NCBI RefSeq assembly: GCF_001898575.1
Contig: NZ_MKUD01000058.1
Coordinates: 1-64,000 of the forward strand
DNA length: 64,000 nucleotides
Direction: 5' to 3'
Source: Spirosoma sp. 48-14
Lineage (GTDB): Bacteria > Bacteroidota > Bacteroidia > Cytophagales > Spirosomataceae
Shown: piece after piece, positions 21,882-26,004 of the stretch
Layout: each line of letters starts with the position of its first letter
How positions within the stretch are numbered: the stretch's first letter is position 1
Translations under genes and position numbers: made by a program
Notes under the pieces: model-generated
What the model saw: the letters and a program-made list of their open reading frames with translations, nothing else
What the model was told of the DNA's origin: nothing
Database searches by the model: none

Positions 21882-22025
21882 GATTTTGTTGCCTGAATTA
21901 GTATGCTCGCATACGGTTTTATCAAACAAATGTACAGGCAAAAGCAGAATAGGGCAATGGAAAATAGGAGAGTATTTAGAAAGTCTATATCATGTAACGA
22001 ACAGCTAACTTTCTGTTCTCATAAG

Positions 22026-22084
22026 TATACCAGAACGGGTATAAATCTGGCTTTTTCTACCAAATTTATACCCGTTCTGGTATA
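22026..22084 (-). repeat. 21-bp perfect inverted repeat, probable end of the Hint gene transcript
   Basis: Bases 22026-22046 (start tataccagaacgggt) are the exact reverse complement of 22064-22084, with a 17-base loop. It begins 15 bases after the stop of the Hint-domain gene. There is no U run, so it may be an element of the palindrome class seen across the window that also protects or ends the transcript. Confidence 0.8.
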
Positions 22085-22099
22085 ATTCAAATGCTTATT

Positions 22100-23101
22100 T
22101 TATTTATCGAGCACTACTGTTTCACTAACGAGGTAAGCACCTGATTGAGTAACCAGGTTATATACTTTGTCAACAGAACGAACAGAAGCTTCGAGACGAA
22201 TCACTTTATAGGCTACCACGCCCTGAACTGTGGCATCATAGCGGTAAACGACTTCCCCTACTTTCACATCGCCCAGCGCCTTCCGACCCGTTGCCGTCAG
22301 CACAGGATGATTGGCCGTCGCTTCGAGCAGTGTGGGCGTAGTTAGCGTTGTACGGGTATCGGCCGTTACTTCCTGAACGGGTGCCACCCATACACCAGCC
22401 AACGCGAATGAACCAGTATGCACATCGATCCGGGTAACGTGTGTGGGAGCAAGCGTTTTGGTTTTAGCCTCATAACCCATCACCACATCGTTTACCGTGA
22501 TGTCCTGAATGCCTTTGGACGACCCATCGGCCAGGGTTACCGGAGCATCGGCAGCAAAGCAGAAGTTGTATTCCTCCTTTTTCTTACCACTTCCCTCCTC
22601 CGATTTTCCGGCACCGCCCGACAGCAGGCCAGCCATTTCGCGGGAAAGTACAAAGGTCAACGTCGACATGAGGCCGGGCTCTTTTTCACCAACGTATTTC
22701 AGGTCGTCGATGTAGGCGTCCCAGGCTTTGCGGTCGGCTGAGGCTCCGGGAATGACAAATGGCTTCACCGCTCCCGTTTTCTCGTTTTTATAAATAGCCA
22801 GCAGGCCAAGTTCTTTGGTATCTTCAACGGAGAATACTTTGTAGAGGTAAATTTTCCGGGTGATGCCATCGCTGTAGGCAAACACGTAGGCTGGGCGTTC
22901 TTCATACCGATCCAGGATAAAACCGCCTGATTTGAAGTACGTATCCTTATCGAGATTCGCGATTTTAATGGCTTTGATCGCATTTAACTGCTCAACAGTC
23001 ATGCTGGCAGAAGCTGTTTGTGCCCAAACACGCTGACTAATCAATTGAGTAGCCATGGCGCAACAAACAAAAAGTAAAAGAGAGAGCAGGTTGTTTTTCA
23101 T
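22100..23101 (-). CDS. secreted protein with C-terminal Hint (intein/hedgehog-type) domain
   Basis: 333 residues. A signal peptide covers 1-28 (ends VWAQ). Residues 30-165 form a domain of unknown family (YFKSGGFILDRYEERPAYV), followed by a Gly/Ser/Lys linker. Residues 181-333 are a Hint domain: block A CFAADAPVTLADG with nucleophile Cys181, then VNDVVMGYE; block B with Thr262 and His265 in EATANHPVLT; and a closing strand VYNLVTQSGAYLV. No C-terminal His-Asn pair and no following extein are present, so protein splicing is not expected. Cleavage or ester transfer at Cys181, as in hedgehog or bacterial intein-like domains, is likely. It is the last gene of a possible three-gene run with an amine oxidase and an aminotransferase. 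Confidence 0.82.
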   Translation of the reverse strand: MKNNLLSLLLFVCCAMATQLISQRVWAQTASASMTVEQLNAIKAIKIANLDKDTYFKSGGFILDRYEERPAYVFAYSDGITRKIYLYKVFSVEDTKELGLLAIYKNEKTGAVKPFVIPGASADRKAWDAYIDDLKYVGEKEPGLMSTLTFVLSREMAGLLSGGAGKSEEGSGKKKEEYNFCFAADAPVTLADGSSKGIQDITVNDVVMGYEAKTKTLAPTHVTRIDVHTGSFALAGVWVAPVQEVTADTRTTLTTPTLLEATANHPVLTATGRKALGDVKVGEVVYRYDATVQGVVAYKVIRLEASVRSVDKVYNLVTQSGAYLVSETVVLDK

Positions 23102-23160: not shown

Positions 23161-24735
23161 TTACTTTTTGGTGTACTCACCCACGCGAGCATGGATGGCT
23201 TCGACCGTACGGCGGGCCGATGTGAACGCTCCGGCCATCCAGGCCGTCAGATACGTGGTATGCTCACCTGCAAAATAGATGTTCCCATCAGGTTCGAGCA
23301 GCGCAGGGTAGTATTTTTTCCGGGTAGCGTCGTCGTAAGTGGCCCAGCCGCCGTTGCTATATGGCGTCCGATGCCAGGCCAGCGAAAACGAATTTTCGAA
23401 CTCAGCCGGATATTGAGGATGCATTTTTCCACCCTGCTCCAGGGCCAATTTTTCGCGTCCGGCCACAGGGAGAGCGCCCACAGCTTCGGCCCGACTATAG
23501 AAATTATAATAGCCGATTAGCACGCCTTTCTTCTCCTGCAACCCAAACGACGGATACCAGATCTGGTTGATGTCCATGTTGGTCCGGGAAATACCGCCAT
23601 AAATACCGTCATCCTCTTCCCAGAACCGACGCTTGAATTGCAGGCCAATCTTACCCGTTTTCATGTACGGGATAAAGTCAGCCGCTCGCTGCACAGTCCC
23701 CGACAGATCCGATTCCAGGTTTTTGAGCATCGGCAACGGTAGTGTACAAACGCAGAATTCGCCCGTCAGCTCAACGGGTTTTCCATCTTTCTGATAAATG
23801 ACCCGTACGCCATTTTCCGTTTTGCGAAGTTCCTTCACGGGCGCGTTGAACAGAATTTTACCCGCCAGTTTTTTCTCAAACGCCCTCGGAATCATATCCA
23901 TCCCACCGACGGGCTGCAACAAAGTAGCCTGCTGTTCATAGGCGTAATCGCCCACGTTGTAAAACACCGGCTGCATAAATCCTGACCGGAGCAGATCGGT
24001 AAGCCCGTAAGGGTCGCTCAAGGTACCGGGTGTATTGCCAGCGCCCGGATCATTTTTGTCTTTATAACCCCGGCGGTTGGTTCCCTTATAGAGATGAGCT
24101 GTGTTCAGATCGCCTTCATTTTTCAGGAAATCGATGAGTTTTTCAACGTCTTCCTTCGTCAATTGCTGATCGAGCGACGACTGGTCGAGGGCTTTGGCCA
24201 GCAGTTCAGACGTATAGCCGCGCATATCGTGGTGATAGTCGCTGATGCGCATCCGTCGGTTGGCAAAATTGCCCGTACCACCATCGTTGTAGAGGTAAGC
24301 CGACTCGTTCGATCCATTGAAAATCTGCAACGGAACCCCTAACTCCCGGCAATAGTGAAGTGTGATCTGGTGATGGTGCGGAATACGGGCGGCTCCGCCG
24401 TTGAAATACAAGCCATCTTCAAACGTGCAGGTTTGTGGCGTTCCGCCACCCAGTTCGGTTTCTTTGGTGCCGCCCCGGATGGTCCAGACCCGGCCACCCG
24501 AACGGGGTCGGGCTTCCAGGACGGTACAATCGTAGCCGAGTTTGCCGAGTTCATAGGCTGCCGTTAATCCAGCGAGTCCGGCGCCTAAAATGATTACTTT
24601 TCGTCCTTTGCCATCCTGCTTCTGTCCATTGGCGGGAAGATCGAATGCCGACGCTGGTGCCGGATGAATCATTCCCCACGCCAACAAACTGGCATAACTG
24701 GCACTGGTTGCATTAATAAAATCGCGTCTTGTCAT
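23161..24735 (-). CDS. Tat-exported flavin monoamine/L-amino acid oxidase
   Basis: FAD-dependent amine oxidase, 524 residues. A Tat signal (MTRRDFINATSASYASLLAW) precedes a cleavage-like APASA. The dinucleotide-binding motif VIILGAGLAGLTAAYELG is followed by TVLEARPRSGGRVWT, the flavin motif of the monoamine oxidase family. The C-terminal FAD segment is IYFAGEHTTYLTAWMAGAF. It should oxidise an amine or amino acid to an imine and hydrogen peroxide in the periplasm. It lies 96 bp after an exported HisC-like aminotransferase and 59 bp before the Hint gene, all on one strand. The substrate is unknown; the Tat signal means it is folded with FAD before export. Confidence 0.9.
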   Translation of the reverse strand: MTRRDFINATSASYASLLAWGMIHPAPASAFDLPANGQKQDGKGRKVIILGAGLAGLTAAYELGKLGYDCTVLEARPRSGGRVWTIRGGTKETELGGGTPQTCTFEDGLYFNGGAARIPHHHQITLHYCRELGVPLQIFNGSNESAYLYNDGGTGNFANRRMRISDYHHDMRGYTSELLAKALDQSSLDQQLTKEDVEKLIDFLKNEGDLNTAHLYKGTNRRGYKDKNDPGAGNTPGTLSDPYGLTDLLRSGFMQPVFYNVGDYAYEQQATLLQPVGGMDMIPRAFEKKLAGKILFNAPVKELRKTENGVRVIYQKDGKPVELTGEFCVCTLPLPMLKNLESDLSGTVQRAADFIPYMKTGKIGLQFKRRFWEEDDGIYGGISRTNMDINQIWYPSFGLQEKKGVLIGYYNFYSRAEAVGALPVAGREKLALEQGGKMHPQYPAEFENSFSLAWHRTPYSNGGWATYDDATRKKYYPALLEPDGNIYFAGEHTTYLTAWMAGAFTSARRTVEAIHARVGEYTKK

Positions 24736-24831: not shown

Positions 24832-26004
24832 TTATCCAACCACTTTTTTAAACCCATCCATGAAAATGGCCATTTCGTCCATCGTACCGACGCTCACTCG
24901 GCAATACGGTTGTCCGTTGAAGTCGCGCGTTTGAATACCGATTCCCTGTGCAAACATCTGGTTGCTGAACGGCCCGGTTTTCATACGAATCGGGAACAGA
25001 ATAAAGTTGGTCGACGATGGAATAACTTCGTATCCCATGTCCGTCAACGCTTTGGTGGTATAAGCCCGTGCTTTTGCGTTCTCGGCCCGGCAATGGTTTT
25101 GCCAATCTTTATCCTGGTAGCTGGCAATACCGGCCATGAGGGTCGTGATACTAACGGCAAAGTCTCCGTTCGTGTAATCACGCAGGGTTCGCAACGTGGC
25201 AGGCTGGGCCATCGCATACCCTAACCGTAACCCAGCAAAGCCGTGAATTTTAGAGAATGTCCGCGCCAGAATCACGTTTAGCCCTTCCGACACCAGTTTA
25301 CCCAGCTTTGGGCGGTCGGCGGGTTCGAAGAAATCAATATAGGCTTCGTCGATAAATACAGGAACTTTGGGCGCTACTTCCCGACAGAAGGCTTCCAGTT
25401 CAGCCGTTGGCACAATCGTACCTGTTGGGTTGTTCGGATTAACGATATAAACCAGTTTCACATCGGGCGTGATGGCAGCCTTGATAGCGGGCAGGTCATA
25501 CTTATAATCCTTCGTCATCGGTAGCGCTTTGATTTTTGCGCCCATCTTCTCGGCCCGCTGCAACAGGTCGTCGTACGTCATCGCACTGGTCAGGATGGTG
25601 CCGCCCCCTTTCGCGAAATTGTCGGCAGCCGCCATCAAAATATCCGACGACCCTGGCGACATCAGGATATGTTCAGTCTTTACGCCTTCATCGGCGGCAA
25701 TTAGTTTCTTCAACTGACCAAACTCCATGAAGGCGTACCGATTCCCAACTTCGGCCGCTTTGACCAGAGCCTCCTTCGCATTGGGCGATATACCCAATGG
25801 GTTTTCATTGGCCAGGAGCCGCGCCCGTAGCTTACCCATTTTTTCGAACGGATCATCGGCAAACGCGAATTCATTTGTAAACGTCGATACAAGCGGAGCG
25901 GCAGGCCGGGCAGCTTCGGCGGGAGTAAATCTACTTAAGCCTAGGCTGGTCGTCAGAAGGCCACTGGCCCGAAGCCAATCCCGGCGAGTTAGTTGTGATG
26001 ACAT
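24832..26004 (-). CDS. Tat-exported HisC-like class I/II aminotransferase
   Basis: PLP enzyme of 390 residues, similar to histidinol-phosphate aminotransferases. The Tat signal is MSSQLTRRDWLRASGLL with an APA-type end before AARPAAP. The PLP lysine is in ARTFSKIHGFAGLRLGY, the cofactor Asp in FIDEAYIDFF, and the YIVNPNNPTGT segment is typical of fold type I. A true HisC would be cytosolic, so the export signal points to another role, transferring amino groups in the periplasm. It heads a run with the exported amine oxidase and the Hint protein. The reading frame is complete. Periplasmic PLP enzymes are uncommon, although Tat export of the folded holoenzyme makes this feasible. Confidence 0.87.
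   Translation of the reverse strand: MSSQLTRRDWLRASGLLTTSLGLSRFTPAEAARPAAPLVSTFTNEFAFADDPFEKMGKLRARLLANENPLGISPNAKEALVKAAEVGNRYAFMEFGQLKKLIAADEGVKTEHILMSPGSSDILMAAADNFAKGGGTILTSAMTYDDLLQRAEKMGAKIKALPMTKDYKYDLPAIKAAITPDVKLVYIVNPNNPTGTIVPTAELEAFCREVAPKVPVFIDEAYIDFFEPADRPKLGKLVSEGLNVILARTFSKIHGFAGLRLGYAMAQPATLRTLRDYTNGDFAVSITTLMAGIASYQDKDWQNHCRAENAKARAYTTKALTDMGYEVIPSSTNFILFPIRMKTGPFSNQMFAQGIGIQTRDFNGQPYCRVSVGTMDEMAIFMDGFKKVVG

Follow-up and report, generated by a model that had tools for sequence, protein, structure and literature searches.

The window analysed here is a stretch of 64,000 nucleotides from Spirosoma sp. 48-14 (contig NZ_MKUD01000058.1), and the genome around it is 8.68 Mb. It carries three co-directional genes encoding an aminotransferase, an oxidase and a 333-aa protein with a Hint domain, with gaps of 96 and 59 bases between them (Table 1). 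The closest relatives with a name are species of Spirosoma. An earlier note on this DNA had described the protein as secreted and had placed Cys181, Thr262 and His265 in Hint blocks A and B; the three residues are present at these positions of the open reading frame, and the N-terminus has a predicted signal peptide. Just 3' of the Hint gene, an inverted repeat (22023-22087) with two arms of 28 nt, 93% complementary, and a 9-nt spacer is a candidate terminator or operator, judged by its sequence.

Table 1. Positions in the window of the Hint protein gene, its parts and the two enzyme genes
Feature	Position	Strand	Basis
N-domain/Hint protein gene	22100..23101	minus	333-aa ORF, relatives known
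Predicted signal peptide, Sec-type, residues ~1-28	23018..23101	minus	read by eye from sequence
N-domain, residues 30-161, family unknown, strands and helices mixed	22619..23014	minus	model, conservation
Linker, residues 162-180, ending KKKEEYNF before Cys181	22562..22618	minus	pLDDT, conservation
Hint domain, residues 181-333	22103..22561	minus	profile matches and fold
Cys181, block A residue 1	22559..22561	minus	53/53; codons TGC 34, TGT 19
His228, between blocks A and B	22418..22420	minus	53/53; His also in BIL2 alignment
Thr262, block B	22316..22318	minus	53/53
His265, block B	22307..22309	minus	53/53
Lys333, final residue, most likely at the intein +1 place	22103..22105	minus	53/53; codons AAA 31, AAG 22
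L-amino acid oxidase-like flavoprotein, twin-Arg N-terminus	23161..24735	minus	PF01593 2.7e-56; 2jae E 9.6e-108
HisC-like aminotransferase, twin-Arg N-terminus	24832..26004	minus	PF00155 2.4e-37; 3ly1 E 2.8e-48

The oxidase was closest to the L-amino acid oxidase of Rhodococcus opacus (2jae), with homology along the entire flavoprotein (residues 45-520), and the aminotransferase to HisC-like enzymes. Lys252 of the aminotransferase, presumably the PLP lysine from what is known of the family, was invariant in 15/15 sequences. Both enzymes begin with twin-arginine sequences as read by eye, and TatC was found in the genome, where the oxidase subfamily (E≤1e-20) and the Hint profile each had a single match. 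In PADLOC, the oxidase strongly matched a desaturase-type flavoprotein model (2.2e-41), whereas the aminotransferase matched DndA/SspA (about 1e-7) and the Hint protein a homing endonuclease (0.0038) only weakly. We took these matches as general enzyme folds and rejected a defence-system reading.

The window protein alone gave matches below the curated cut-offs: 26.4 against 32.1 bits for PF05203, 22.9 against 29.7 for PF01079 and 21.4 against 24.5 for TIGR01445. PF01079, the Pfam Hint module, matched 26 of 26 diverse members of the family at E≤0.01, and eight of nine relatives scanned singly were above its cut-off (L054 was below). Comparison of the family profile with solved structures found inteins, BIL2 and hedgehog, with 26 distinct sequences at E≤0.01. 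Foldseek search with the AlphaFold model also found inteins, BIL domains and hedgehog, with probability 1.00 and TMt of 0.86 (1mi8), 0.84 (1at0) and 0.81 (2lwy), ranging from 0.74 to 0.89 over the first 21 rows. In the whole-chain model (mean pLDDT 76.7, pTM 0.43) the placing of the two domains is unreliable. Although the window protein alone was weak, the assignment is firm because of the profile matches of its relatives and the fold match, so we regard the 333-aa protein, by profile and by model, as carrying a genuine Hint domain. The Hint domain proposed in the earlier note is thus borne out by both HMM search and fold prediction.

The N-domain, modelled separately, reached a mean pLDDT of 82.3 and a pTM of 0.79. 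It had no match in Pfam, and its model had no fold in the PDB at E≤0.001 by Foldseek (best 0.068, SdnG), which agrees with the former statement that its family is unknown; weak matches to SdnG, DnaK and NAC were treated as chance. Among the 33 near sequences, the mean pairwise identity was 84.6% for N-domain residues 48-160 and 54.9% for the Hint part, and among all 53 sequences it was 56.3% against 42.2%. Residues 162-178 of the linker had pLDDT <50 in the whole-chain model, and residues 173-182 showed 98.8% mean pairwise identity in the 33 near sequences. The open frames listed for N-domain matches, from the searches of the phylum and of the window's family, had 306-396 codons, and among these frames, going by their length, the N-domain is never met without room for a Hint domain.

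Scanning of genome contigs revealed 32 relatives, in Spirosoma, Fibrisoma, Larkinella, Rudanella, Fibrivirga and Fibrella and in one record labelled Flavobacterium sp. (L030). The cassette of this last record is 61% identical to that of the window in the best segment; the others, by name, are only Spirosoma and its allies, and the record is a candidate for mislabelling or transfer. Of 395 genomes from across the phylum, 11 matched the N-domain profile, a number that stayed the same when the profile was widened; in the window's family 78 of 222 genomes matched. The window's genome is counted in each case. The window protein, the 32 near loci and 20 distant loci were aligned (53 proteins); the residue-level reading covers these 53, among them part of the 78 family genomes.

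Nine residues of the Hint domain were invariant in 53/53: C181, F182, H228, T262, H265, P266, G272, V313 and K333. The block A Cys and the block B Thr and His claimed before are therefore kept in all relatives aligned. In the N-domain, D78, G79, P118, W127 and Y130 were invariant in 53/53. C181, H228, T262, H265 and K333 were retained in 53/53 through synonymous codon changes. His228 is also matched by a His at the aligned position of BIL2, and it may have a further role in catalysis or metal binding. It lies near the position of the acceptor-activating Asp of hedgehog; to equate the two would go beyond the alignment, which is gapped at that point.

The oxidase gene was directly upstream in all 32 near loci (in three pieces in L004), and the aminotransferase gene was present in 31, the exception being at a contig end. 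Among the 20 distant loci, the aminotransferase was found in 20/20 and the oxidase in 16/20. The four loci without oxidase (L063, L064, L065 and L073) are of one genus, in which the aminotransferase and Hint protein are kept and the oxidase is lost. The gene order was aminotransferase-oxidase-Hint or oxidase-aminotransferase-Hint, and no further gene family was common to more than 7 of the 20 distant loci. One cassette (L072:3444-5886) contained a tandem pair of aminotransferase genes. A link with the downstream thiolase and hydratase/dehydrogenase genes was rejected, as thiolase was found within a 4-kb flank in 9 of 32 near loci and in 0 of 20 distant ones.

Within the 222 genomes of the window's family, the oxidase subfamily (E≤1e-100) was present in 70, the Hint protein in 78 and both in 69. 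In each of these 69 genomes the two matches shared contig and strand and lay 83-328 bases apart. The sole genome with only the oxidase is 71% complete and its match is partial. Eight of the nine genomes with only the Hint protein are from the genus lacking the oxidase, and in the ninth (G596) the match lies 362 bases from the contig start. The neighbouring oxidase and aminotransferase, which the earlier note had called exported, thus belong to a conserved cassette, with a Hint gene adjoining in 69 of 70 oxidase-bearing genomes of the family; their export is predicted. The gene arrangement, with the Lys ending described below, suggests that the Hint protein may be a self-modifying partner of the cassette oxidase and aminotransferase. 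Because the N-domain sequence is near-fixed and the Hint-aminotransferase pair persists where the oxidase is lost, the N-domain itself may be a partner of the aminotransferase or a factor in its maturation. Titles and abstract beginnings of the literature among the matches listed described neither a Hint domain with +1 Lys nor this cassette of Bacteroidota.

The His-Asn pair at the C-terminus of inteins was absent from all 53 aligned relatives, as had been reported for the window protein. The former view that nothing follows the Hint domain needs revision, since the chain ends on the invariant Lys333, which is aligned with the intein +1 residue. The endings in the family were ...VVLDK, ...VVLEK, ...VMVMQK and similar. 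The stop codon is directly after Lys in 46/53, one extra residue follows in 7/53, and 1-3 residues follow in three loci of further families. Up to three residues may therefore follow the Lys, and so the side chain, not the chain end, is conserved. Lys333 is under selection as an amino acid, as read from the coding sequences, because its codons vary between AAA and AAG (Table 1).

For the register of this Lys, we aligned the C-terminal 36 residues of all 53 proteins with the C-termini of 18 inteins taken from genomes of Bacteroidota. These inteins were picked by a pattern requiring His-Asn/Gln and +1 Cys/Ser/Thr, and thus mark register and not frequency. The Lys column of the family coincided with the intein +1 column. 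The intein Asn column held D 38, Q 7, E 5, V 1, A 1 and K 1, and the column of the penultimate His held L 45, M 5, S 1, R 1 and K 1 (n=53). The model has a hairpin turn at 326-327, and matching this turn to the Asn-Gly/Asp turn of inteins gave the same +1 register. When the protein was aligned with the Mtu RecA intein alone and the alignment was carried on to its end, Lys333 fell on the Asn place; we rejected this placing, which neither the joint alignment nor the hairpin turn favours. Hhalign of short C-terminal pieces was confident only until the residue preceding Asp332 (local probability 56.7, global 1.8). By alignment and model, Lys333 most likely occupies the intein +1 position, that of the second nucleophile.

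Hint domains ending in Lys were also found on other proteins. Across the phylum, 17 of 296 genomes gave a match to the Hint profile at E≤0.001. One of these matches (L133:5783-7480) comes from a different family within the order and is a frame of 566 codons with an unrelated Gln-rich N-domain, for which export is predicted, and with the ending ...GGLLVGAK. In an alignment of 15 sequences, this protein had C, F, H, T, N, H, P, G, V, V and the Lys in common. Of the other, weaker phylum matches, five were read: four (L123, L125, L126 and L128) had His-Asn and then more residues, and one (L124) had neither.

There were 34 Hint matches, 29 of them strong, in 140 genomes of that second taxonomic family; the five weak ones were left uncounted, and in three of these (L161-L163) the pattern found no such domain. 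Loci were obtained for 27 of the 29 strong matches, and 27/27 have the Lys ending; the first N-domain type accounts for 20 of them and the second for seven. A further family of 122 genomes gave 11 matches; two were already counted and the remaining 9/9 have the Lys. In total the Lys was present in 89/89 distinct loci read (53+27+9); in the 36 further loci it was placed by eye from sequence ends, except one that was aligned. Ten loci taken from the 20 of the first type had both enzymes in 10/10 (each in two pieces in L164), with the Hint gene on the opposite strand facing the enzyme pair in 3/10. The second type (L133, L154-L160) forms a second exported protein family of 566-609 codons, with a Gln-rich N-domain unrelated to the first and a Lys-ending Hint domain. 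Oxidase or aminotransferase neighbours were found in 0/7 of the second-type loci within 1.5 kb, and across 15 kb of one locus there were none.

In the Hint superfamily, the first step is an N-S acyl shift at residue 1 aided by block B. Inteins resolve the resulting thioester by the side chain of the +1 residue, and the known nucleophiles of this second step are Cys, Ser and Thr; C-terminal cleavage requires Asn. The amine of a +1 Lys would yield a stable isopeptide.

From the fold, the invariant residues, the place of Lys333 and the cassette found here, we infer the following export routes, chemical steps and role of the N-domain. The Tat-type oxidase, the Tat-type aminotransferase and the Sec-type N-domain/Hint protein, as their export routes were read by eye, would meet outside the cytoplasm. 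Thioester chemistry at Cys181 is likely, judging by the conserved residues: the bond preceding Cys181 would undergo an N-S acyl shift with assistance of Thr262 and His265, leaving the N-domain as a thioester on Cys181. Since the His-Asn for C-terminal cleavage is gone and the +1 residue is an invariant Lys, Lys333 would directly help resolve this thioester, most likely through attack of its epsilon-amine, by which the N-domain would be moved onto the lysine as an isopeptide. D/E/Q on the Asn column in 50/53 and L/M on the penultimate-His column in 50/53 are in favour of such Lys chemistry. The working product would be the conserved N-domain, which probably partners the two enzymes, and the Hint domain, which changes faster, would be its processing device. 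We put this full explanation, an exported three-gene module in which the Cys181 thioester is resolved with Lys333 and the N-domain passes onto the lysine, close to an even chance. The +1 Lys could instead be a general acid/base or structural; by its position it would offer a built-in amine acceptor alongside water or alcohol.

The recurrence of the ending on two unrelated exported N-domains may mean that the Lys-ending Hint domain is a portable module acting by itself as an isopeptide ligase, with +1 Lys replacing Cys/Ser/Thr. This reading is tentative, and in our view it is unlikely to be right.

Plain N-terminal autocleavage, as in B-type BIL domains, we also consider unlikely, if a serious rival. 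In such a protein the Cys181 thioester would be hydrolysed and the N-domain freed, and Lys333 would be merely structural. Every residue that catalyses the first step is retained, and B-type BIL domains, which lack the C-terminal motif, cleave on their N-side according to PMC7765530, but autocleavage leaves unexplained why Lys333 is among the nine invariant Hint residues (53/53) and why it recurs in the second family.

Improbable in our estimate is a route like that of hedgehog or BUBL, in which the N-domain would pass to a protein, amine or lipid acceptor from outside and Lys333 would help to activate this acceptor. The conserved partner enzymes are predicted to be exported, the solved structures nearest to the domain include hedgehog and BIL2, and His228 lies near the acceptor-activating residue of hedgehog, with the alignment gap given above. 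Against this, an acceptor-recognition region is absent after the Hint domain, and we know of no acceptor. The hedgehog-like ester transfer suggested earlier thus gained no specific support, since the Hint domain has no further region behind it. That the Hint domain is chemically inactive and now acts in binding or folding is similarly doubtful: the His-Asn pair is lost and the domain changes faster than the N-domain (54.9% against 84.6% mean pairwise identity), but its few invariant residues include the catalytic ones, kept despite synonymous codon changes.

If the +1 Lys is the acceptor favoured above, a bacterial Hint domain would make an intrachain isopeptide, a chemistry reported for one ciliate domain (PMC8616854). 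Acting as an isopeptide ligase outside the cytoplasm, it would leave the protein branched for good and need no energy source, and protein ligation might profit from it. Study of the conserved, exported oxidase/aminotransferase/Hint cassette of Bacteroidota would then also have a starting point.

Compared with known systems, the domain shares with class 1 inteins blocks A and B with Cys, Thr and His and the block F pattern; unlike them, it lacks the penultimate His and the terminal Asn, has Lys at +1 and has no C-extein beyond 0-3 residues. The Hog domain of hedgehog has the same Hint fold (1at0, TMt 0.84) and is likewise a C-terminal Hint domain behind a secreted N-domain, and the Pfam Hint module is the family matched by most members (26/26). 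However, the sterol/adduct recognition region of hedgehog is missing here, where the chain ends 0-3 residues past the Lys, and the two N-domains are unrelated by Pfam. The oxidase of the window differs from that of Rhodococcus opacus (2jae) in its twin-Arg N-terminus and its cassette setting.

The A-type BIL domains as described in PMC7765530 have a C-terminal His-Asn, which is absent from the Hint protein here. The description of B-type BIL domains in that paper, with N-side motifs present and the C-terminal motif absent, resembles our protein; compared by this description, B-type domains lie in variable regions of non-conserved proteins, whereas the Hint protein here is conserved and stand-alone, in a conserved cassette and with an invariant +1 Lys. 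BIL2 of the Tetrahymena thermophila BUBL1 locus (6y75, 6tmm) shares the Hint fold (Foldseek rank 2), was matched by the family profile over model positions 8-155 of 160 (E 8.2e-7) and has a His at the place of His228. It differs in being eukaryotic and flanked on both sides by ubiquitin-like domains, and its acceptor Lys is in the following domain, not at +1, by the account in PMC8616854. There the providers of the BIL2 structure report that the domain joins an isopeptide to the epsilon-amine of a Lys and is able to attach a ubiquitin-like domain to other proteins. As BIL2 ranks with the best matches of the family in both sequence and fold, it is a precedent for the proposed Lys333 chemistry, and the +1 Lys here would be compatible with such acyl transfer.
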